Positions 10,530 through 22,351 of a DNA stretch of 64,000 nucleotides are shown here, one piece after another; positions within the stretch are counted from its first letter, which is position 1; every line of letters begins with the position of its first letter. Position numbers and translations under genes: made by a program. This stretch comes from an uncultured Granulosicoccaceae bacterium. GTDB lineage: Bacteria > Pseudomonadota > Gammaproteobacteria > Granulosicoccales > Granulosicoccaceae. The DNA is taken from positions 1 through 64,000 of the forward strand of contig CALJAA010000028.1 in NCBI GenBank assembly GCA_938028465.1. Reading direction: 5' to 3'. Below the pieces are notes generated by a model. It ran no database searches. It was not told the origin of the DNA and saw only the letters and a list, made by a program, of their open reading frames with translations.

Positions 10530-10568
10530 TTTAATTGTTTTATTTAATTGTTTTATTTAATTGTTATT
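10530..10568. repeat. 13-bp tandem repeat (about 3 copies) upstream of ffh
   Basis: TTTAATTGTTTTA TTTAATTGTTTTA TTTAATTGTTATT. Confidence 0.85.
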
Positions 10569-10581
10569 AATTGGGATAACC

Positions 10582-11943
10582 ATGTTTGATTCGTTGAGCG
10601 AACGATTAGGCCGTACTATCAAAACCTTGCGAGGGCAAGGGCGGCTTACCGAAGATAACATCAAGGATACCATGCGTGAAGTGCGCATGGCCTTACTAGA
10701 GGCTGATGTGGCCTTGCCCGTGGTTAAGACGGTCATCGACCGCGTTCGCGAAAAGGCGTCGGGCCAGGAAGTGCTCGGTAGCCTCACACCAGGGCAAGCG
10801 CTAATCAAAGTTGTTAGCGATGAGTTAACAGCGATCATGGGCGAACAGGCCGAGGATCTAAACCTCGCTACGCAGCCGCCAGCGGTTGTATTGATGGCAG
10901 GCTTGCAAGGCGCTGGTAAAACCACCACCGTTGCTAAGCTAGCGCGTCGCCTAAAAGAAAAACAAAAAAAGAAAGTAATGGTAGTCAGTTGTGATGTCTA
11001 TCGTCCAGCCGCTATCAAGCAACTTAAAACCCTAGCTGACAGTGTTGAGGTCGCGTTCTTTGAAAGCAACGTTGATCAATCACCCATTGATATCGCTAAT
11101 GCAGCGCTGGCGGCAGCTAAAACCCAATTCATTGATGTGTTATTAGTGGATACCGCTGGTCGCTTAGCCATCGACGAAGAAATGATGAGCGAGATACAGC
11201 AACTGCACTCGGCCATTAATCCGATCGAAACCTTGTTTGTTGTCGATAGCATGACTGGCCAAGATGCGGCAAACACGGCTAAAGCGTTTGGTGATGCACT
11301 TCCATTGACAGGTGTTGTGTTAACCAAAACTGATGGCGATGCACGTGGTGGTGCGGCTTTGTCAGTACGCATGATTACTGGCAAACCCATCAAGTTTATT
11401 GGCGCGGGCGAAAAAACGGATGCGCTTGAGCCGTTTTATCCCGATCGTGTGGCATCGCGTATCTTGGGAATGGGCGATGTCGTCAGCCTGGTTGAGGAAG
11501 TTACTGAAAAAGTTGATCACGCCAAGGCCGAAAAATTTGCGAAAAAAATGCAGAAGGGCAAAAACTTTGATTTTGTCGATCTGCGTGAACAGCTCGAACA
11601 GATGGCCAATATGGGTGGCATGGCATCGTTGCTCGATAAAATGCCGGGCATGAGTAACATCCCTGAAAAAGTAAAAAACCAAGCCAATGATGGCGAGTTT
11701 AAAAAGATGATGGCCCTTATTGATTCAATGACTCCACATGAGCGTAAGTATCCTGCGGTGCTTAAAGGCTCGCGCAAAAAACGCATAGCTGCAGGCGCTG
11801 GTTTGCAAGTGCAAGACTTAAACCGCTTGGTTAAGCAGCATATGCAAATGAGCAAGATGATGAAAAAAATGAACAAAGGCGGCGGGATGGCTAAGATGAT
11901 GCGCGGCATGCAAGGCAAGTTGCCACCTGGCATGGGCATGTAA
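10582..11943 (+). CDS. ffh: signal recognition particle protein Ffh
   Basis: MFDSLSERLGRTIKTLRGQGRLTEDNI; GLQGAGKTTTVAKLARRL; VDTAGRL; Met-rich M domain. Start moved 21 nt downstream of the ORF-track start. Confidence 0.97.
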   Translation: MFDSLSERLGRTIKTLRGQGRLTEDNIKDTMREVRMALLEADVALPVVKTVIDRVREKASGQEVLGSLTPGQALIKVVSDELTAIMGEQAEDLNLATQPPAVVLMAGLQGAGKTTTVAKLARRLKEKQKKKVMVVSCDVYRPAAIKQLKTLADSVEVAFFESNVDQSPIDIANAALAAAKTQFIDVLLVDTAGRLAIDEEMMSEIQQLHSAINPIETLFVVDSMTGQDAANTAKAFGDALPLTGVVLTKTDGDARGGAALSVRMITGKPIKFIGAGEKTDALEPFYPDRVASRILGMGDVVSLVEEVTEKVDHAKAEKFAKKMQKGKNFDFVDLREQLEQMANMGGMASLLDKMPGMSNIPEKVKNQANDGEFKKMMALIDSMTPHERKYPAVLKGSRKKRIAAGAGLQVQDLNRLVKQHMQMSKMMKKMNKGGGMAKMMRGMQGKLPPGMGM

Positions 11944-11945
11944 AC

Positions 11946-12884
11946 ATGCAGTCAGACGCATCAGGAGGATTGCCTGCGATAACACTAAAAAATGTGCACA
12001 AGCGTTTTGGGTCGTTACAAGTGCTTCAGGGCTTAACGCTCAATGTCGAACGTGGCGAAGTGTATGGTTTTTTAGGGCGCAACGGCGCGGGAAAATCGAC
12101 AACGATAAAACTACTGATGGGCATCACTCAAGCGGATGAAGGTTTGGTGTCATTATTTGGCGAAGACATCAGCAGTTCGCTAATCCCTATCAGGCAGCGT
12201 ATTGGCTACGTTGCGCAAGAACAGCACTTTTATCCATGGATGTCGCCTAAGGCACTGGGTAGTTTCCTAAAAGGCCTTTATCCAAAGTGGGATAAGCGGC
12301 GCTACGCACAATTACTTGATCGCTTTGAATTGCCACTCAAGCGAAAGTCTGCGGTGTTTTCCGGCGGCATGAAAGCAAAGCTAGCATTGTCAGTTGCCTT
12401 GGCATCAAGACCTGAGCTGCTCATTTTGGATGAACCCACTGCGGGTATGGATCCAGTAGCGCGACGCGAATTTTTGGATTTAGTGCGTGAGGAATCCGCG
12501 CAAGCTGGCACAACAACCTTTTTCTCCACTCATTTAATTGATGATATTGAATCCATTTCTACTCGAATTGGCATAGTGGAAAACGGTAAAACGATATACG
12601 ACGGTAGTTTGCAAGCCTTGTCACAGGGAGTGGTGGCGTATCGTATCGATTCCGAGCACGATTATCCTGATGCGCTTCCGGGAGAATTTGTTAGGCAAGC
12701 TACGCAGGTTTTGCAGCACATGCAAAGCCCGCAGCATCGCACGCTGATACTTAAATTTGCTGGTAGTGTGCCATCGGGTATGCCGCTTAACCTGGGTTGG
12801 CGGATACATCCTATGTCACTCGAGGATATTTTTATTGCCGTAGTGGCTGGCCAGAGCCAAGGCCGCAATCAAGGCGATAGATAA
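11946..12884 (+). CDS. ABC transporter ATP-binding protein
   Basis: Walker A GRNGAGKST; signature SGGMKAKL; Walker B LLILDEPTAGMD; starts 3 nt after ffh stop. Confidence 0.95.
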   Translation: MQSDASGGLPAITLKNVHKRFGSLQVLQGLTLNVERGEVYGFLGRNGAGKSTTIKLLMGITQADEGLVSLFGEDISSSLIPIRQRIGYVAQEQHFYPWMSPKALGSFLKGLYPKWDKRRYAQLLDRFELPLKRKSAVFSGGMKAKLALSVALASRPELLILDEPTAGMDPVARREFLDLVREESAQAGTTTFFSTHLIDDIESISTRIGIVENGKTIYDGSLQALSQGVVAYRIDSEHDYPDALPGEFVRQATQVLQHMQSPQHRTLILKFAGSVPSGMPLNLGWRIHPMSLEDIFIAVVAGQSQGRNQGDR

Positions 12885-14812
12885 TGGCCTTAGGCGGTGC
12901 CCCCACGTTAATAAAAAAGGAATTTCGCGAACACGGCTTATCCATGCTGTTGCTAGGCGGTGGCTTTATTCTCACCCTGTTATTGGCGCATGCACAAAAC
13001 CAGCAAGCCGCCTTTGCAATGAGCCCGTTGCAGGTGTTGCTTCTGTCAGTGACTCTTGTGTTGCCGCTCATTGCATTTATTATGGGCAACCGGCTAATTA
13101 CCGCTGAGTATTTGGGTCGCACGCGTCAATTCGCTGAATCTTTACCCATTAAGCCCTTAGTATTTTTGATCATTAAGTATTTGCTAGGTTTGTTATTTCT
13201 GAGCGGTTTGGCAGTAGCTGCAATTGCTTATGCGTGGTTGCTATCAGATAGTGGAGATGCGCTAGATCAACGATTGCTGCGGATCGTTTCATTAAAGGTT
13301 TTGTCGGTGATGTTCTTTATCTGGAGCATCGTTTTTTGTTTTAGTTTTTTTGGTTCTCTCAGATTCGCTCTTTACGTCATGCTCGGTTTGTTGATCTTGA
13401 CCGTCATTAATTACCCCGGATTTGACCAGCGCGATTTTGGGCCTTTTGCATTACTTGATCAGGGGGTGTTTGCATTTGAACGCGATCAAATACCCATAAA
13501 AGCTGCGATCCAAACAATAGGCATGGGTGTTGTTTTTACATTAGCAGGTTTTATGTTGCCATTGATGCGCGACGGTTCGTTAATTGAATCGCTGGCCAAG
13601 CCAGTCAATCGCGGCAATATGGTTGTGTTGTCAATAATTGGTGTGGGTGTGCTAGCCACGCTGGGTTCGCTAATCGAAAAATGGGATGCGCCTCAATACG
13701 ATTTTAGTAGCGATTACGTGGTATCAACAGTTGACCCACCTATTTCAGTTTTATACTTAGAACCAAAATATGAGGAGCCGTCTCAGCAATTGTTAGATTC
13801 GATGCACAATCTAATCGTACCGTTGCAACAGGCACTAGATATAGAGGATGTGCCGATAGTGCGAGTCGTGTTGGATACTGCTCTATCCCAAACTGATTTA
13901 AATGATATTCGGTTTGGCGCCGCCGATGGTGTGGTTGTCAGAGCCAATTACTTAGAGTACGACAGTTATTCGATGGCAGTATTGCAAACTAATGCAATGC
14001 ATCAACTAATTCAAGTGACTTCCGGCGATCGTCGCACCTTTGAACCCTATCACTGGCTTACCGATGGGTTTACCCGCTGGTGGGTTGAAGATAACCTTGA
14101 TGAAGAAACACACAAAACAGAACTGATTGCGCGTGCTGTGCATAGCCTTCAATACCTAGAAGAGCCTATTGATCTTGCATACAATTGGCAATGGATAGCA
14201 GAGTATGTCAGCTACCCCTCGGCGGAGGCGCTGGCCTACACGGCCCTAGTTTATTTTGAACAGCAGTTTGGTCGGGACGCGGTGATGGAGTTAGCTAATA
14301 CAGTTTTAGCGCCAACCGTGACTAAAAATACGGTGGGTATGGTGAAGGATCGCAGCGTTGGTGTGCGCCGCCCATTTAGCGAAATAGCAGGGCAAGATCT
14401 GGATAGTTTTTTTGTTGATTGGCTGCAATGGCTTAAGGGTCAGCAATCTGATTCTGCAATTGCTGGCTTACTAAGCGCAATGCCCAATGTTAAAGCCGCG
14501 GCTACTAGTAAAACCAAATCTGATGGTGTGCACCGGCTCACCGGTAGCTATCGAACCATTGATGCATCCGATCCAGTCGAGCTTACTGGCTTTACTTGCG
14601 ATATGCAGCACGTTCTAATTTCTCCTTTCGATTATGAAATAGCTTGGACCTCTGGTCAGCACGACTATCAAGCTTGCGATTTCTCTGATGCATTGCATTC
14701 TGTGTCGTCTTACTACGCGGCTGGCGATAGAGTGTTTGTCGCATTTGAGGTAAAGCTGGATACGCTGCATCAAGCACTGCGTGTAGGCGCGCAACGGCTG
14801 GTGATCGAGTGA
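12884..14812 (+). CDS. ABC-2 type permease fused to a gluzincin-like domain (degenerate active site)
   Basis: About 250 aa TM region followed by a soluble domain; HQLIQ (codons 373-377) and LTDG (D394) sit where the paralog has HETAH and IEG. Confidence 0.75.
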   Translation: MALGGAPTLIKKEFREHGLSMLLLGGGFILTLLLAHAQNQQAAFAMSPLQVLLLSVTLVLPLIAFIMGNRLITAEYLGRTRQFAESLPIKPLVFLIIKYLLGLLFLSGLAVAAIAYAWLLSDSGDALDQRLLRIVSLKVLSVMFFIWSIVFCFSFFGSLRFALYVMLGLLILTVINYPGFDQRDFGPFALLDQGVFAFERDQIPIKAAIQTIGMGVVFTLAGFMLPLMRDGSLIESLAKPVNRGNMVVLSIIGVGVLATLGSLIEKWDAPQYDFSSDYVVSTVDPPISVLYLEPKYEEPSQQLLDSMHNLIVPLQQALDIEDVPIVRVVLDTALSQTDLNDIRFGAADGVVVRANYLEYDSYSMAVLQTNAMHQLIQVTSGDRRTFEPYHWLTDGFTRWWVEDNLDEETHKTELIARAVHSLQYLEEPIDLAYNWQWIAEYVSYPSAEALAYTALVYFEQQFGRDAVMELANTVLAPTVTKNTVGMVKDRSVGVRRPFSEIAGQDLDSFFVDWLQWLKGQQSDSAIAGLLSAMPNVKAAATSKTKSDGVHRLTGSYRTIDASDPVELTGFTCDMQHVLISPFDYEIAWTSGQHDYQACDFSDALHSVSSYYAAGDRVFVAFEVKLDTLHQALRVGAQRLVIE

Positions 14813-16692
14813 TTGCACTCATTGCAAAAGAATTGCGGCAACTCATGCCGATTGCTTATTTATGGATCGCCCTGCTAGCGCTCTCAATTGGTATTGAGCT
14901 TTTTACGACACGCATTGATGAGCAAAGCTACGAGTTGTTTTGCGATGCACTTTGTGCCCCTGGTATCGAATATTCGCAGGCGATATTTTTACTGATTTTG
15001 TGTCTGGTTACGGCGTATAGCCTTTATCCACGAGAAGTGGATGAGCGCACGATTGATTTTTTACATGCCTTGCCAATTAAAAAATCGACTGTGTTTTATG
15101 GCAAATTTATCGCCGCATTTGGCCTTGTTTGCTTGCTGCTGATATTTGGGTATGCCGTTTTAAATTTGCTTTTGGCATTTAATCCTGAATCTATGTCAGG
15201 CAAAAAATACTTTGCTATCGATGGCAGCTTGTTCTTACGGGATTGCGTTTTTGCTTTTGTCGTTATGGCGCATGGCGTATTTTTATCTCGATTCCGCACA
15301 GTTGGACTTGTGGTTTACGCACTCTATTTGATGTTAATCCGCTGGCTCGAAACCTTGTTTGATGGCATAGGTTGGATTAGTGTTTTTGAAATATTCAAAA
15401 TAGATTATGCCGGCACGGCATTTTCTTTTAGTGTCAATGCGATGATAGGTCACGTTGCTGTTGCCTTAGTGTTGCTGGTTTGGGCCTGTAAGCTGTGGTC
15501 ATCCGCCCAAGGAAAGGCAGAAGGCGCAAGTAAGAATGAAAGGGCGCATAAAGTTTTAAAAGTCGTGGCAAGCGTATTTGGTTTTCTATTTATGGCGATG
15601 GTCGTAGTTGGCCAAGTGATACAAAATGCGCAAGTAGCACAGGAAAGAGCCACCGAAGACCTGCGCACCGATCATTACCGGTTTACATTTTTAACGGCTG
15701 ACAAGGCGCGAGCGGAAGAGCTGCAAGCCACTGCCGAAGAGCATTATCAACAGTTACGAGTGTTGTTGAATGCCACTGAAGAGCCTGTTATATACGTTGA
15801 TATGACATCGGAGAATGATCACGCAGCCGGGCTTGCTCAGTGGAAAACAATTAAAATGGGCCTTAGCCGAGGTGAGTCGCCGGAGCGTTATGCTCGCGTG
15901 CTGAGTCATGAAACCGCTCACGTGTTTCAGTCAGTTGAATCCAATCGAGCTTTTGGAACCTATTTTGATTCGACCCGCTTTTTTATAGAAGGTATGGCTA
16001 ACTACACGTCGTTCGAAATCGTGCCGCAGGCGGACACGCGCAGACAAAACCGAGATATCGCTGCGGTTTCTTGGAAACGGCAAGATATTCGATTTGAGGA
16101 TATGGCTAACAGTACGGCCTTTAGCAACGAATTTAATGCAGAGCTCGTATACAGCCTTGGTGAAATTTGGACTGAAGCGCTTGTCGATGTCTGTGGCAAA
16201 GAAGCTCTTGGTGAGGTGTTACGATCCGCCGGACGCGATGGCGCGCCAAAAGCGTTATCTGCCATAGTGTTTTGGCGGGATACCTTGCAATATTTTTCAT
16301 GCGAGATGGAGCTGGTTAATGCGGCTTGGCGTAACAAGTTAGCCGCTCGCTATGATGAACTAGATCAAAGCCAGTTTCCGGTCCTAGATAATATGTCGGC
16401 GGTGGATAATGGTGGCGTAATCACGGTCAGTGTCTCGGTTCCCCTAACCAGTGAGCTGCCTCGTAATCGATATACCTTGAGGATGGCCAAAGAAAGCAAA
16501 ACAGTGGCATCGGTCGATGCGGTTTTCAAGCCTGTTGACCTAGTAGCTGAAGGAGATTCGCAGGTGGTGAAGTTTGAGGTGCCAGCTGCACTAATTGATA
16601 ACGGCAGATTCAGGTACCAGGTTGGGTATCAGATCGAATCGGGCTCACGGATTTATTTTCAGCCGTGGCGCAGCGGTTCAGTTTTTCAATAG
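14809..16692 (+). CDS. ABC-2 type permease fused to a gluzincin-type zinc metallopeptidase domain
   Basis: TM N-terminal half; VLSHETAHVFQ...FFIEGMANY gives HExxH (codons 367-371) plus E394 after 22 residues; 4-bp overlap with the preceding gene. Confidence 0.8.
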   Translation: MIALIAKELRQLMPIAYLWIALLALSIGIELFTTRIDEQSYELFCDALCAPGIEYSQAIFLLILCLVTAYSLYPREVDERTIDFLHALPIKKSTVFYGKFIAAFGLVCLLLIFGYAVLNLLLAFNPESMSGKKYFAIDGSLFLRDCVFAFVVMAHGVFLSRFRTVGLVVYALYLMLIRWLETLFDGIGWISVFEIFKIDYAGTAFSFSVNAMIGHVAVALVLLVWACKLWSSAQGKAEGASKNERAHKVLKVVASVFGFLFMAMVVVGQVIQNAQVAQERATEDLRTDHYRFTFLTADKARAEELQATAEEHYQQLRVLLNATEEPVIYVDMTSENDHAAGLAQWKTIKMGLSRGESPERYARVLSHETAHVFQSVESNRAFGTYFDSTRFFIEGMANYTSFEIVPQADTRRQNRDIAAVSWKRQDIRFEDMANSTAFSNEFNAELVYSLGEIWTEALVDVCGKEALGEVLRSAGRDGAPKALSAIVFWRDTLQYFSCEMELVNAAWRNKLAARYDELDQSQFPVLDNMSAVDNGGVITVSVSVPLTSELPRNRYTLRMAKESKTVASVDAVFKPVDLVAEGDSQVVKFEVPAALIDNGRFRYQVGYQIESGSRIYFQPWRSGSVFQ

Positions 16693-16720
16693 CGGCAACT
16701 CTGCCTGTATACTTGCAAGC

Positions 16721-17179
16721 ATGTTATCCAAATTCATAACAATTGCACTGCTGGTGTTTTCAATCGGTATTTATGCGAATACGACAACGCCTGCCGACAA
16801 GCAAGGCTTGCGTATCGCAATGCTAGCCGCTGAAACGCAGTTTGATAGCAATACTATGGCGTTAACTCCTGAAGGGATACAATCATTGCAGGATCTAATT
16901 GCGGAATTAGATAAATTTCACGAAATCCTATCTATTCGGATTGTTGGCCATACAGATGATGTTGGCTCAATAGAATTTAACAAATCACTTTCAATGCAGC
17001 GTGCTAATTTCATCAAGCAAAGCTTTGTAAAAAAATTCGCCAATGCTCATCTTATTTCTATAGGAGCGGGTGAGGCGCAGCCCATTGCCAACAATGATAG
17101 TGAGGCAGGGCGTGAACTCAACAGGCGGGTTGAGATTCAAGTCATAGCAAGGGGTTACATGCCGCTCTCTACCGATTAG
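16721..17179 (+). CDS. OmpA-family C-terminal (peptidoglycan-binding-like) protein with signal peptide
   Basis: MLSKFITIALLVFSIGIYA signal; IRIVGHTDDVGSIEFNKSLSMQRANFIKQ; NRRVEIQV. Confidence 0.88.
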   Translation: MLSKFITIALLVFSIGIYANTTTPADKQGLRIAMLAAETQFDSNTMALTPEGIQSLQDLIAELDKFHEILSIRIVGHTDDVGSIEFNKSLSMQRANFIKQSFVKKFANAHLISIGAGEAQPIANNDSEAGRELNRRVEIQVIARGYMPLSTD

Positions 17180-17267
17180 GTGGCGACAAACAATTGACTG
17201 TGTTGGCTGCCGCGTTGAGCCGTAAAACTGGTTAAACTTTACGGCAGTCGTCTTGTGTAATCCAGCA

Positions 17268-20200
17268 GTGAAGCGCCGTTCCTTAATCCATATCCAGCCG
17301 GGTACTACCCCACTGCTTTTATTGGCAGTGTCTGCCAGTGTGAGCACGGTTGCCCGAGGTGAAGAGGCATCGGTTCCACAAAGTGAGGCAGGCGGTTCGT
17401 CATTAGCTCACTCTGATCAATCTACACGATCTTTGATTAACGAAGGGTTGGCTTCCGGTGTATGGATTATGCCTGTCGATGGCGATAAACAAAGCAACAG
17501 TCGATTTTTACAAAAGTTGTTGTTAAGTCATGGTGTGCAAATTGACTTAGATAAGTCCGAATTTCTTGATACCGCGCAATTTGCAGAATCGCTTAGGCAA
17601 GCACCATCTACAGCTGTCACTATTGATGAATTTGATCTAACCGTGTTGGTTGAGATGGACGCACTACTGAATATGCCAAAGCCGGTGCAAACCAGCCGCT
17701 TAGAGGTTAGCGATCAATGGGAAGTGCTTTGGTTAGATTTAAGTGCTGATGGTGATTTTGACGAAGAGCAAGCCAGGTTACAGGTAAAGCAATCGTTAGA
17801 GAAAAAACTAAGTTCCCCAAACTCCCAATGGCAGCTTGATGTGCTCATTAGTAGGCCAGCAACGGTTGCTGAGCTGGCCGCCTTAAAACAACAAGGTAAG
17901 TATCCGTTGCCGTTAAAGTCAGATGCGGCGCTTCAATCTGGGCTGGTAGGCAGGCAACAATCGAAAACCCCAATTAAGAAAAACAAGCCTAGAAAGGGCG
18001 TGCTAAAACGCTGGTTGTCGACATTGCCTTTGGATGTTGATCTAGATGATGATTGTAGTGTTCAGAACGCGATATCTGAGTACTTAAAAAACCCAGAGTC
18101 AGTTACGCCTCCTAAAATAAGTGAATCAGGCCAGTCCGCTAATGTGATGAATAACGGGGTTAGTAGTGAATGGGAAGTGCGTTGGTTAGATTGCGAGATT
18201 GACTTAGGTAAACCGGCGATGGCGATTACTGATGATTCAAGCCTAAATAAAATGCCCGATATTAATCTGGGCACAAGTTCTACCGGAGTAGCAAAGCAAA
18301 CTCCGCCTGTCTCTTTGTCGCTAGATGAGCTGCCTGCTGATCGAAGCTCTAGTCCAGCACCAGCTACCGCAGAAGAGGCGACTGGTATGTTTGGTTTTGA
18401 TGATGACGTACCTCCAGGTTTTGAAAATTTGGCTGGGCCGCAAACACAATACGTTGATGTGTATTTCAATGAGCGAAAGGTAGGCTCAACGTCCATCACG
18501 GCGACGGCTGAAGTTTTCACATTTGATGAGCCTATAGAGGTGGCGGGCATGCTTCAAGGCATCAAAGATTCGGCATCGCTTCATTCATTGTTGGCCGTGT
18601 CGCTTGATACGAACGGTCATTTAATTTGTTATACCGCGGGCGATCCGCCAGGTTGTGGCATTGTTGATGCTGATCCTGTGGCCGCGATATTTAACGACGC
18701 AGAACTAAGAGTCGACCTATTTATTGCACCAGAGCTGCAGAGTGTACAAGCACTTGAACGCCTTCGTTATTTGCCCGTACCTGGCAGTAAAAATACGTCC
18801 ATCTTGTCGTTGTATGCCGTGAGTTCGAAGTTAGAAGACGAGGATGCAGCGCTTGACGTATCAGCTCGCGCCTTGCTTGGTTATGGGCGAGGTAACTTTT
18901 CACTGGAAGCGGATTATAACTCTCGTACTGAGCGGCAACGTTTGCGAGAAATTAAGTTAACGCACTACTTCAACGACTATGAGCTTGGCTTGGGTACGTA
19001 TTCACACAGCCCAGGCGGTGGCCTTGCAGATATTGATTTGCTCGGTGGAAGTTTTTCAACATCGTATAAGTCACGTATTGATCTTGAACGAGCCTTTAGC
19101 TCTGATTTAATCGTATATCTACCGCGGCGCTCGGTTGTACAAGTAGCCGTTGATGACAGAATCTATTCAGGTGATAGTTATGATGCGGGTAATCAGGCAA
19201 TAGATACAACGGCATTGCCAGATGGATCGTACGAAGTTGAGATTCGGATTATTGACCCCTTAAGTGGATCGCGAACCGAAACCCGTGTATTTACTAAGAG
19301 CACGCAAATACCCCCAAAAGGTGAGTCCGTCATTAGCGTTACCGCCGGTAATGTGATCGAGTTTGGCGACGACGACGTGCTCCCGGAGATTAATAATGTT
19401 TCGGTGGCAGGATTTACCCTTGGTAATCGCTTAACGGATCAGTCAGCGTTTAAGCTAGGCTTGCTTCAGTTTGGAACGCAATCATTTATACAATCTGAGT
19501 TTCTGTATCTTGGCGAACGAATATCGCTACAACTAGCGGCCAGCGCCGGTGAGGACAGCACCTTAGCCAGTGCGTTTAGAGTGGCGTATGCGCGCAGCGG
19601 AGTATCGCTAAATATTACGGGTAATTACTTTGGATCAGAATTTGAGCCTGGGCCAGACCCTAGTGAGCAGGCGGCCTATCAGCGCATGTTTCCTAATGAC
19701 TACCAGCAAGTCAGTGCATCGATAGGTAAGGCGTTCAAGCGTTTTTCATTAGGTGCTCGAACCAGCTATCGCAAAGAAGATACCGACGTTGGGATAAACA
19801 CGAGCAAGCAGTACTCTGTATATTATCGTCAACCCGTGTTTCGACAAAGAAATCTTCGCGGTTTTGTTGATGCAAACTTACAGCAAGACGATTTTGACCG
19901 CCGATTGAAACTACAGTTTAATGTGTACTTTGGGCGCGGCCAATGGAACGGTGGTATTCAAACAGCGGCCCGCCGAACTGAGTCGGAAGATTGGGAGCAT
20001 CAATGGGGCGCGGATGTGGGTTGGCATTCTGCTAGTAATCGAACACTTCAATGGCAAACCGGCACGTATCTGAGATCAGAGCAAAGTTTTCGCTCGGCTG
20101 GTGCGCATCTAGACGTTGAGCATCCCTGGTTCACAGCTGGGATAGCGTCAGATTGGAATGAAGCATCAACAGGCGGTACCGTACAAAACTCAATTGCAAG

Positions 20201-20774
20201 CCTAAGTGCACATATTGGCTTAGATAAAAAAGGCGGAGCGATAGGTGGCAGCGACTTTGCTCAGGCTGGTGTCATCATCGCAGTAGATGGTGAGCCAGCT
20301 GGTGCTAAGTTTGATGTGTTTGTTAATAACATCAAAATAGCGGCGGGTCAGATCGGTGCGTCGCAATTTATTGGCTTACAACCTTTCGAGCGTTACTCAG
20401 TAAAGCTTGTTCCGCAAACCACCTTGTCAAACGGTTTAGGTGAGGACATACACGAATTTACCTTATACCCCGGAACAGTCGAGCGAATTAGTATTACCGC
20501 TCAGCAAGAGATTATGTTGGTGGGTACCTTGATTGATGAAAGTGGTGAAATCATCGCCAATGCCTTAATGCAAACCGAACCGAATCCGTTAATTGTTGAT
20601 GCCAGTGGGTATGTTCAAGCGGAGCTGCAGCCGGGTAAAGTGGTGACGGTTAAATTGTCAGACGGTAGCTATTGTGAATTTACCGTTCCGAGCTCTGCAG
20701 AAGAAGACATTGTTGTAATGGCAGAGCCGATCGAATGCAGGGCTATTGAAAAATCTGAACCCAAGCCCGAGTAG
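17268..20774 (+). CDS. outer-membrane usher-like protein (TcfC/CfaC type) with large N-terminal extension
   Basis: Usher-type segments YLPRRSVVQVAVDDRIYSGDSYDAGNQAIDTTALPDGSYEVEIRIIDPLSGSRTETRVFTKSTQIPP; beta-barrel-like middle; beta-sandwich-like C-terminus. Start uncertain (GTG at 17268 or TTG at 17253). Confidence 0.8.
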   Translation: MKRRSLIHIQPGTTPLLLLAVSASVSTVARGEEASVPQSEAGGSSLAHSDQSTRSLINEGLASGVWIMPVDGDKQSNSRFLQKLLLSHGVQIDLDKSEFLDTAQFAESLRQAPSTAVTIDEFDLTVLVEMDALLNMPKPVQTSRLEVSDQWEVLWLDLSADGDFDEEQARLQVKQSLEKKLSSPNSQWQLDVLISRPATVAELAALKQQGKYPLPLKSDAALQSGLVGRQQSKTPIKKNKPRKGVLKRWLSTLPLDVDLDDDCSVQNAISEYLKNPESVTPPKISESGQSANVMNNGVSSEWEVRWLDCEIDLGKPAMAITDDSSLNKMPDINLGTSSTGVAKQTPPVSLSLDELPADRSSSPAPATAEEATGMFGFDDDVPPGFENLAGPQTQYVDVYFNERKVGSTSITATAEVFTFDEPIEVAGMLQGIKDSASLHSLLAVSLDTNGHLICYTAGDPPGCGIVDADPVAAIFNDAELRVDLFIAPELQSVQALERLRYLPVPGSKNTSILSLYAVSSKLEDEDAALDVSARALLGYGRGNFSLEADYNSRTERQRLREIKLTHYFNDYELGLGTYSHSPGGGLADIDLLGGSFSTSYKSRIDLERAFSSDLIVYLPRRSVVQVAVDDRIYSGDSYDAGNQAIDTTALPDGSYEVEIRIIDPLSGSRTETRVFTKSTQIPPKGESVISVTAGNVIEFGDDDVLPEINNVSVAGFTLGNRLTDQSAFKLGLLQFGTQSFIQSEFLYLGERISLQLAASAGEDSTLASAFRVAYARSGVSLNITGNYFGSEFEPGPDPSEQAAYQRMFPNDYQQVSASIGKAFKRFSLGARTSYRKEDTDVGINTSKQYSVYYRQPVFRQRNLRGFVDANLQQDDFDRRLKLQFNVYFGRGQWNGGIQTAARRTESEDWEHQWGADVGWHSASNRTLQWQTGTYLRSEQSFRSAGAHLDVEHPWFTAGIASDWNEASTGGTVQNSIASLSAHIGLDKKGGAIGGSDFAQAGVIIAVDGEPAGAKFDVFVNNIKIAAGQIGASQFIGLQPFERYSVKLVPQTTLSNGLGEDIHEFTLYPGTVERISITAQQEIMLVGTLIDESGEIIANALMQTEPNPLIVDASGYVQAELQPGKVVTVKLSDGSYCEFTVPSSAEEDIVVMAEPIECRAIEKSEPKPE

Positions 20775-20784
20775 GGCTTGGGTT
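20758..20784. terminator. bidirectional stem-loop between usher and chaperone genes
   Basis: AACCCAAGCCC-GAGTA-GGGCTTGGGTT perfect inverted repeat overlapping the usher stop codon. Confidence 0.7.
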
Positions 20785-20792
20785 GATTGCGC

Positions 20793-21521
20793 TTAATAAC
20801 TTGCTTTCGAATTATCAATACCAACTGATTTCCATACCTTTACTGGGTACCGGCTTGCCGGCCCTGACTTGGGTAAGGCAACTCTATAAGTCTCGCCTGC
20901 GTAGAGGCGATTAGGTTGTATCTCTACGCAGTCAGATTCTGAACTTCCACACTGAACGATTTTGCGTAACAGCACATTGGTATTGCCGTTGTTCGCAAAT
21001 TCAATCGAATTGTTGGTACGTTTGACTTTTAAGTCCGCATTGGCGTTTTGAGGGCGTGACAAAAGTAATAGGTCGTAACCGACCAATACTTTTATGGCAG
21101 ATGCTTTTTTGTTGCCACCGTCATTGTCGAGTTTCACTTTTCCAGTGTAGGGCTTAACAGATAAACGAAACACGCGATCCTTATTCGTTGCTGATTCTCT
21201 TAGTATCACTCGTACACGTTTGCGTTGACCAGGTGGAAGCAGTATTTGCTTTGGGCTTACTAATACCGCTGCAGTACGTGGATCGGTTAGCTCGACTCGG
21301 CCAGGGTTTTCTGATTCAGGGTTGATTATTTCTGCCGCATTTAGGTCGAGATAGATTTTGAAGTCGCCGTTATTTTTGACTTCAATATCTTGAACCAACT
21401 TATCGGGTGAAAATTCAATTACAGAGCGATTGACTGAAAGTTGCGCTGTAGCCGTTTGTGACAATGCCAGCCCAGCTACCATCAGGCCTAGTTTGGAGAT
21501 GTCTTTAAAGATTTTGATCAT
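20793..21521 (-). CDS. fimbrial/pilus periplasmic chaperone (PapD-like)
   Basis: 242 aa, signal peptide; SVNRSVIEFSPDKLVQDIEVKNNGDFKIYLDL; ILLPPGQRKRVRVILRE; second Ig-like domain. Confidence 0.85.
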   Translation of the reverse strand: MIKIFKDISKLGLMVAGLALSQTATAQLSVNRSVIEFSPDKLVQDIEVKNNGDFKIYLDLNAAEIINPESENPGRVELTDPRTAAVLVSPKQILLPPGQRKRVRVILRESATNKDRVFRLSVKPYTGKVKLDNDGGNKKASAIKVLVGYDLLLLSRPQNANADLKVKRTNNSIEFANNGNTNVLLRKIVQCGSSESDCVEIQPNRLYAGETYRVALPKSGPASRYPVKVWKSVGIDNSKASY

Positions 21522-21820
21522 GCGTCGTATCTGCCATTTTTTTAATTGTTATGCCTGAATTTGCTAGCGGCAGCCCCTTAGGTACCTTCATTTTAGGCCA
21601 TGGTTTTTCGTAGCGCACCCCACTTTAGATGGGCTAGATGTGAATAGCTTCCTAAAGCGGCAGGAGAAACTGTGTAGCACACGGGAATATTACCTAGTGA
21701 AGTTACAAAAGGCCTGTTCGGCTGCCGATACGGATCTCAGCTAGGGGATGGCAGTTTATCTTCTCGTTACGGCAGCGTATCGAAAGCGTCCGTTCCTAGT
21801 TTTCCTAGACGTAAATAACA

Positions 21821-22351
21821 ATGAGAATAATAAAATTTATGAAGAACTTTAAACTTGCGGTATTGGCTTCAGCTTTGGTTACATCTGGTTCGTTAATGGC
21901 GGCCCAAGACGGCAACTTAGGTGGTACTTCTGCAGGCGAATCACTAGTAACCATCATTAAGGAAAACGCTGTACAAATAAGCGATGTGGCAGATCTTGAT
22001 CTAGGCTCACACGCAACTCTTGCAGCTGATGTATCCGCTAACGATGATGTTTGTGTTTTCAATTCAACTGCAGCCTATAGTATTACGGTGAGCTCTGCTA
22101 ACGGTGAATTTAAATTGATGAATGGCGCAGCTGAAATTCCTTATTCAGTTGAGTGGTCTGCTAATAGTGGGGCTGCAGCTCCTCTCGCACACGGTGCAGC
22201 GCTGGCGTCTTTGGCTGGTGATCGTACGAGTCTGAATTGCAATGGTGGCACTAATGCTAATTTTAGCGCGACTGTAGCCGCGGCTGATTTTAATGCAGCT
22301 GGCCCAGGCACTTACACTGATACATTAACCCTTCTAGTTGAGCCTGAGTAA
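21821..22351 (+). CDS. pilin-like secreted protein (candidate major pilin)
   Basis: Signal peptide MKNFKLAVLASALVTSGSLMAA (ATG at 21839 may be the true start); two Cys; C-terminal GPGTYTDTLTLLVEPE; next to chaperone and usher. Confidence 0.7.
   Translation: MRIIKFMKNFKLAVLASALVTSGSLMAAQDGNLGGTSAGESLVTIIKENAVQISDVADLDLGSHATLAADVSANDDVCVFNSTAAYSITVSSANGEFKLMNGAAEIPYSVEWSANSGAAAPLAHGAALASLAGDRTSLNCNGGTNANFSATVAAADFNAAGPGTYTDTLTLLVEPE

Follow-up and report, generated by a model that had tools for sequence, protein, structure and literature searches.

The window, by which we mean the whole 64,000-nucleotide stretch analysed here, carries three adjoining genes that encode an ABC ATPase and two half-permeases, P1 and P2, each of which ends in a soluble domain with a predicted M1-like fold. 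The predicted peptidase site is intact in P2, and all relatives checked have lost it in P1; the two halves therefore probably act jointly as a peptidase linked to a transporter. The reading that we favour, and hold to be moderately probable, is a heteromeric ABC-2 complex in which a catalytic P2 is paired with a pseudopeptidase P1 that gates the chamber of P2; within it we infer the assembly, the periplasmic side, the zinc, the peptidase activity, the direction of transport and the role of P1.

The three genes lie on the plus strand and overlap head to tail: the ATPase at 11946-12884 (312 residues), P1 at 12884-14812 (642 residues) and P2 at 14809-16692 (627 residues). P1 has an ATG start codon that overlaps the ATPase stop by 1 bp, and P2 begins with GTG and overlaps the P1 stop by 4 bp; the coordinates of both permease genes had been given exactly in an earlier, sequence-only reading of this DNA. 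The ATPase (Pfam ABC_tran, E=1.2e-30) carries a Walker A motif (GRNGAGKS), the signature FSGGM, a Walker B motif (LLILDEP) and an H-loop (STH). Walker A, FSGGM and the H-loop are found in 26/26 ATPase copies, and the gene adjoins P1 in relatives with intact contigs. Directly 5' of the ATPase lies ffh (10561-11946), with the ATPase ATG 3 bases past the ffh stop codon; this adjacency occurs only in the window and its closest relative, and the trio sits elsewhere in other clades. On the other side, an OmpA-like ORF is listed at 16595-17179 with a TTG start that falls within P2, and translation more probably begins at the ATG at 16721 (MLSKFITIALLVF, signal-like). It is followed at 17253-22351 by a cluster resembling a chaperone-usher system, whose ORFs were named by eye from their translations: a large usher-like ORF of 1173 residues (17253-20774), a chaperone-like ORF (20793-21521, minus strand) and pilin-like ORFs from 21821.

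By hydropathy, the hydrophobic segments in the membrane half of P1 (12884-13675, plus strand) fit seven TM helices, the seventh of which, at about residues 246-264, leads to the soluble domain. Those of the P2 membrane half (14809-15627, plus strand) likewise fit seven TM helices, the last again running into the soluble domain, and this half matches ABC2_membrane_4 at E=1.3e-5. The same profile is found at E<=0.01 in 15/16 P2 orthologues (best 6.9e-11) and in 7/15 P1 orthologues (best E=5.7e-07), and the window's own P1 and P2 lie under the Pfam cut-off for the ABC-2 membrane profile. Judged by sequence, the ATPase motifs beside the permeases and the ABC-2 profile in the permease halves class the trio as a predicted ABC-2-type transporter. 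The P2 membrane half also gives weak profile matches to NosY/CcmB-type ABC-2 permeases (E=0.6-1.5 in PDB sequences; best E=3.2e-5 for the CcmB Pfam family), which, unlike P2, have no fused peptidase domain. If, as in ABC-2 permeases, the TM2-TM3 loop (GNRLITAEYLGRTRQFAESLP in P1) serves for coupling on the cytoplasmic side, both soluble domains would lie in the periplasm. In agreement with this placement are the seven hydrophobic segments and the invariant cysteine pairs, which are candidate disulfides: C572/C598 in P1 (14597-14677, plus strand; 26/26, also invariant in A4) and C462/C498 in P2 (16192-16302, plus strand; 28/28, also invariant in A3). We therefore treat both soluble domains as predicted periplasmic domains.

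AlphaFold2 models built from alignments of the window proteins and their relatives gave the soluble domains of P1 (13676-14809, plus strand; pLDDT 89.6, pTM 0.91) and P2 (15628-16689, plus strand; pLDDT 90.9, pTM 0.90) an M1-like fold with a C-terminal β-sandwich. The order of elements is common to both: N-terminal strands, a long helix, three strands, the motif helix, the ligand helix, further helices and the β-sandwich. Foldseek searches of the PDB returned the M1 enzyme IRAP as the best match for each domain (8p0i for P2, E=1.3e-7; 4pj6 for P1, E=1.6e-6), and chain B of 7edx, a TFIID subunit with an M1-like fold, appeared in both lists. The TM-scores were below 0.5 and the rmsd large for both domains, the targets being much larger multidomain chains, so the M1 match is one of topology. 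The shared element order and the shared PDB neighbours, M1 aminopeptidases, support kinship of the two soluble domains at the level of predicted fold, in line with the sequence-only reading. The label 'M1-type' used there holds for the fold, by model and Foldseek, but not for Pfam membership, as there is no match to PF01433.

In profile comparison the full-length proteins scored 97.8% (E=1e-12, 592 columns), to which the membrane halves contributed at least a share, whereas the soluble domains alone reached a weak 2.4%, or 52.6% when the secondary structure of the models was included; direct P1-P2 sequence alignment placed the soluble halves at chance level, and PDB sequence searches gave no significant match. 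The weak soluble-only score, together with the finding of no peptidase family for P1, might be taken to mean that the soluble domains are not homologous, that the resemblance of P1 is coincidental and that P2 alone is a gluzincin. We consider this highly improbable, as the independent models agree in element order, in the C-terminal β-sandwich and in the top PDB family, and the HWxxDG of P1 aligns with the FFxEGMA of P2.

The predicted active site of P2 comprises three elements. The first is HETAH (H367, E368 and H371; 15907-15921, plus strand), the zinc-site and catalytic motif, which the sequence-only reading had placed at residues 367-371. The second is E394 in FFIEGMANY (15988-15990, plus strand), the predicted third metal ligand, 22 residues on as that reading had counted. 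In the model HETAH sits in the long helix expected of a gluzincin fold and E394 in the next long helix. H367, E368, H371, E394 and G395 are invariant in 31/31 P2 orthologues, and the gap of 22 is also kept in 31/31, so the motif is no chance occurrence. The third element is Y448 in YSLG (16150-16152, plus strand), in the position that the catalytic Tyr of YxKG occupies in M1 enzymes, where it stabilizes the transition state. Y448 and G451 are invariant in 31/31 P2 sequences, with the Tyr 53-55 residues past E394. From this conserved catalytic set we infer that P2 is built as an active zinc peptidase.

Assignment of P2 to peptidase family M1 was rejected. Members of family M1 have 18 residues between HExxH and Glu and carry GxMEN; in P2 the gap is 22, the exopeptidase motif GxMEN occurs in 0/31 sequences and PF01433 gives no match. 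With its HExxH, downstream Glu and predicted gluzincin fold, P2 is best described as a putative gluzincin (MA(E)-type) outside Pfam M1. PF01433 is absent from the whole genome of the window (G000) at E<=0.001, in an assembly 88.8% complete, and 90/114 genomes of the class have one. The window P2 matches no Pfam peptidase family above the cut-off (best DUF6055, E=0.0011), and among ORFs of at least 90 residues no precursor peptide or substrate gene is conserved beside the trio. Both observations would suit an ordinary ABC-2 exporter of a small molecule or lipid, in which the M1-like domains bind or gate and the P2 motif serves metal binding, not proteolysis. Metal binding alone, however, needs the ligands only, and E368 and Y448 are invariant in 31/31 sequences; we regard such an exporter as rather unlikely.

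P1 carries HQLIQ at residues 373-377 and D394 in LTDG, as previously reported from the sequence. All 28 P1 orthologues share H373, D394, G395, H390, W391, E387 and R383. HExxH is present at the site in 0/28 of them, which upholds the claim that the catalytic Glu is lost; a single HEKPH, in L079, lies at residue 470, about 100 residues downstream of the site. The segment T369-H373 (13988-14002, plus strand) appears to be the remnant of the HExxH helix, with H373 as the one retained His and no Glu, and D394 (14063-14065, plus strand), in HWxxDG, aligns with E394 of P2, so that Asp stands where Glu would be the third metal ligand. Among the 28 sequences position 370 is V, I, T, N, A or F and position 374 is G, H or Q. 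The likely counterpart of the P2 Tyr, position 452, is Y, W or F, so the Tyr is not kept.

The register of P1 against P2 probably differs from the one first proposed, in which HQLIQ stood for HETAH. In the models H373 of P1 lies 12 residues into a 19-residue helix and 6 from its end, which corresponds to H371 of P2 (13 into a 20-residue helix, 6 from the end) rather than to H367 (9 in, 10 from the end). These helix positions favour H373 as the second His, with T369 and N370 replacing the first His and the Glu. The alignment by hhalign of the soluble domains alone placed H373 on H367 of P2 with a 3-residue gap, that of the full proteins placed it beside H371, and an ungapped sliding-register score did not separate the two P1 registers (0.039 vs 0.010). 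The original register of HQLIQ is likely to be shifted by one helical turn. Whichever register is right, P1 lacks the Glu and keeps no more than one of the two His. Given the predicted M1-like fold and the loss of the Glu in all orthologues, we describe P1 as a predicted pseudopeptidase with a dead site.

P1 could also serve in binding, with H373, H390, D394, E387 and R383 forming a site repurposed for a metal or a ligand; the pair would then be a receptor and a peptidase. These five residues are invariant in 28/28 sequences, which is stricter than structural upkeep alone demands. The most divergent P1 (L161:3124-5042) speaks against such a site, as it has Arg at the H373 position and Ala at that of H390, with LLDG kept; we judge a binding role of this kind distinctly unlikely. 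The contig with this divergent copy stops where P1 does; the P2 from that genome (L056) lies at the start of another contig and keeps HETVH.

Loss of the catalytic residues has not been followed by decay of P1. Against the nearest relative, dN/dS was 0.038 for the ATPase, 0.098 for P1 and 0.043 for P2, and for the soluble domains 0.119 in P1, the looser of the two, vs 0.045 in P2; synonymous sites are near saturation, so these ratios are approximate. P1 is constrained, and both P1 and P2 are under purifying selection. The pairwise distances of P1 and P2 correlate (r = 0.97), to which shared ancestry contributes, and this correlation alone does not show physical contact.

The two genes occur together. 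P1 is full-length in 32/48 genomes of the order, a count that includes some P1/P2 copies split over contigs, P2 is full-length in the same 32, and the other 16 have neither; two further P2 matches in these 48 genomes cover the membrane core only. The co-conservation of an active and a dead half, a check suggested in the sequence-only reading, holds across the P1/P2 orthologues. A search with two conserved peptides in 85,462 species (one genome each) found 30 relatives; one is a Chromatiales MAG, and the others bear the label Granulosicoccus or Granulosicoccaceae. Profile searches were made in 274 genomes from the class and 399 from the phylum, which are samples in which rare distant carriers may have been missed. 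In the class sample, the full-length matches were the window and one genome of the same genus, the remaining matches covering the membrane core only; in the phylum sample the window alone was matched. Neither sample yielded a full-length relative from another family.

Wherever the contig is long enough, the genes in L032-L058 and L059-L088 run ATPase-P1-P2, and the genes flanking the trio vary between clades; the trio therefore behaves as one unit. Genes next to it encode, among others, GGDEF/EAL proteins, methionine synthase, an NYN-domain protein, a mechanosensitive channel and a rhomboid. In one clade (L083:2333-2953; also L084 and L086; cluster c13) the rhomboid-family gene immediately precedes the trio. 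Among ORFs of at least 90 residues, no neighbouring gene is common to all clades, and a dedicated peptide or RiPP export cassette was rejected on this ground. Since no substrate gene is conserved next to the trio, its role may be a general one in the envelope rather than that of a dedicated peptide exporter. Two other possibilities were also discarded: PADLOC gave no match for P1 or P2 and generic matches only for the ATPase, which leaves no sign of a defence system, and the search for plasmid carriage gave no match.

Fusions of ABC permeases to M1 domains are known, as the sequence-only reading had noted, and we found a single-chain example in another genome (L198:4520-8122, 1200 residues; PF01433, E=2.6e-14), the only one of 12 loci with other M1-containing frames from the class to have a multi-TM permease part. 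Like P2, it joins an ABC-2-like membrane part to a C-terminal M1-fold domain, and its HEAAH, downstream Glu and YNKG align with HETAH, E394 and YSLG of P2. There are clear differences, however. The L198 fusion is one chain with about 12 TM helices and a single catalytic, Pfam-positive M1 domain, and it has no second, dead domain; the trio has two chains of about seven TM helices, each with a soluble domain outside Pfam M1, one of them dead. Because single-chain permease/M1 fusions exist, the two-chain active/dead arrangement is a variant on a known theme; no description of permease-peptidase fusions in this arrangement was found in the literature searched, which included few subscription journals. 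M1 aminopeptidases (IRAP, ERAP1 and PepN) and the M1-like TFIID subunit in 7edx are the best structural neighbours of the two domains. The aminopeptidases share the HExxH...E and YxxG layout with P2, which differs from them in its gap of 22 and in lacking GxMEN, the N-terminal M1 domain and a Pfam M1 match. The M16B peptidases offer a possible functional parallel: active/inactive metallopeptidase pairs of homologous subunits come from two-gene operons, and in the mitochondrial processing peptidase the inactive subunit is essential (PMC11266112). P1 and P2 are likewise encoded as a pair with homologous, predicted active and inactive metallopeptidase domains; the M16B pairs differ in having HxxEH, another fold and no fusion to transporter permeases.

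In the mechanism that we propose, an ATPase dimer would sit under a P1/P2 permease heterodimer to form one heteromeric ABC-2-type complex, and the two M1-like domains would be neighbours in the periplasm. The zinc peptidase would be P2. P1, of the same domain origin but with catalysis lost, would now shape or gate a shared substrate chamber, a role modelled on the inactive alpha and active beta subunits of the mitochondrial processing peptidase and on the bacterial M16B pairs. Driven by ATP hydrolysis, a peptide would leave or cross the inner membrane and reach P2, which would cleave it; alternatively, ATP hydrolysis may transmit a mechanical signal that opens the peptidase.

The carriers are marine Granulosicoccaceae bacteria, a family that includes the kelp-associated genus Granulosicoccus. 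We tentatively suggest, as a possibility short of an even chance, that the family has a lineage-specific transporter-coupled peptidase, in which ATP drives a periplasmic heterodimer of a catalytic and a pseudo gluzincin that pulls peptides from the inner membrane and cuts them, as an ABC counterpart of the M16B pairs. The trio builds a strictly co-conserved active/dead peptidase pair into an ABC transporter, and it offers a clean system for studying the contribution of a pseudoenzyme half and the possible control of proteolysis by an ABC motor.
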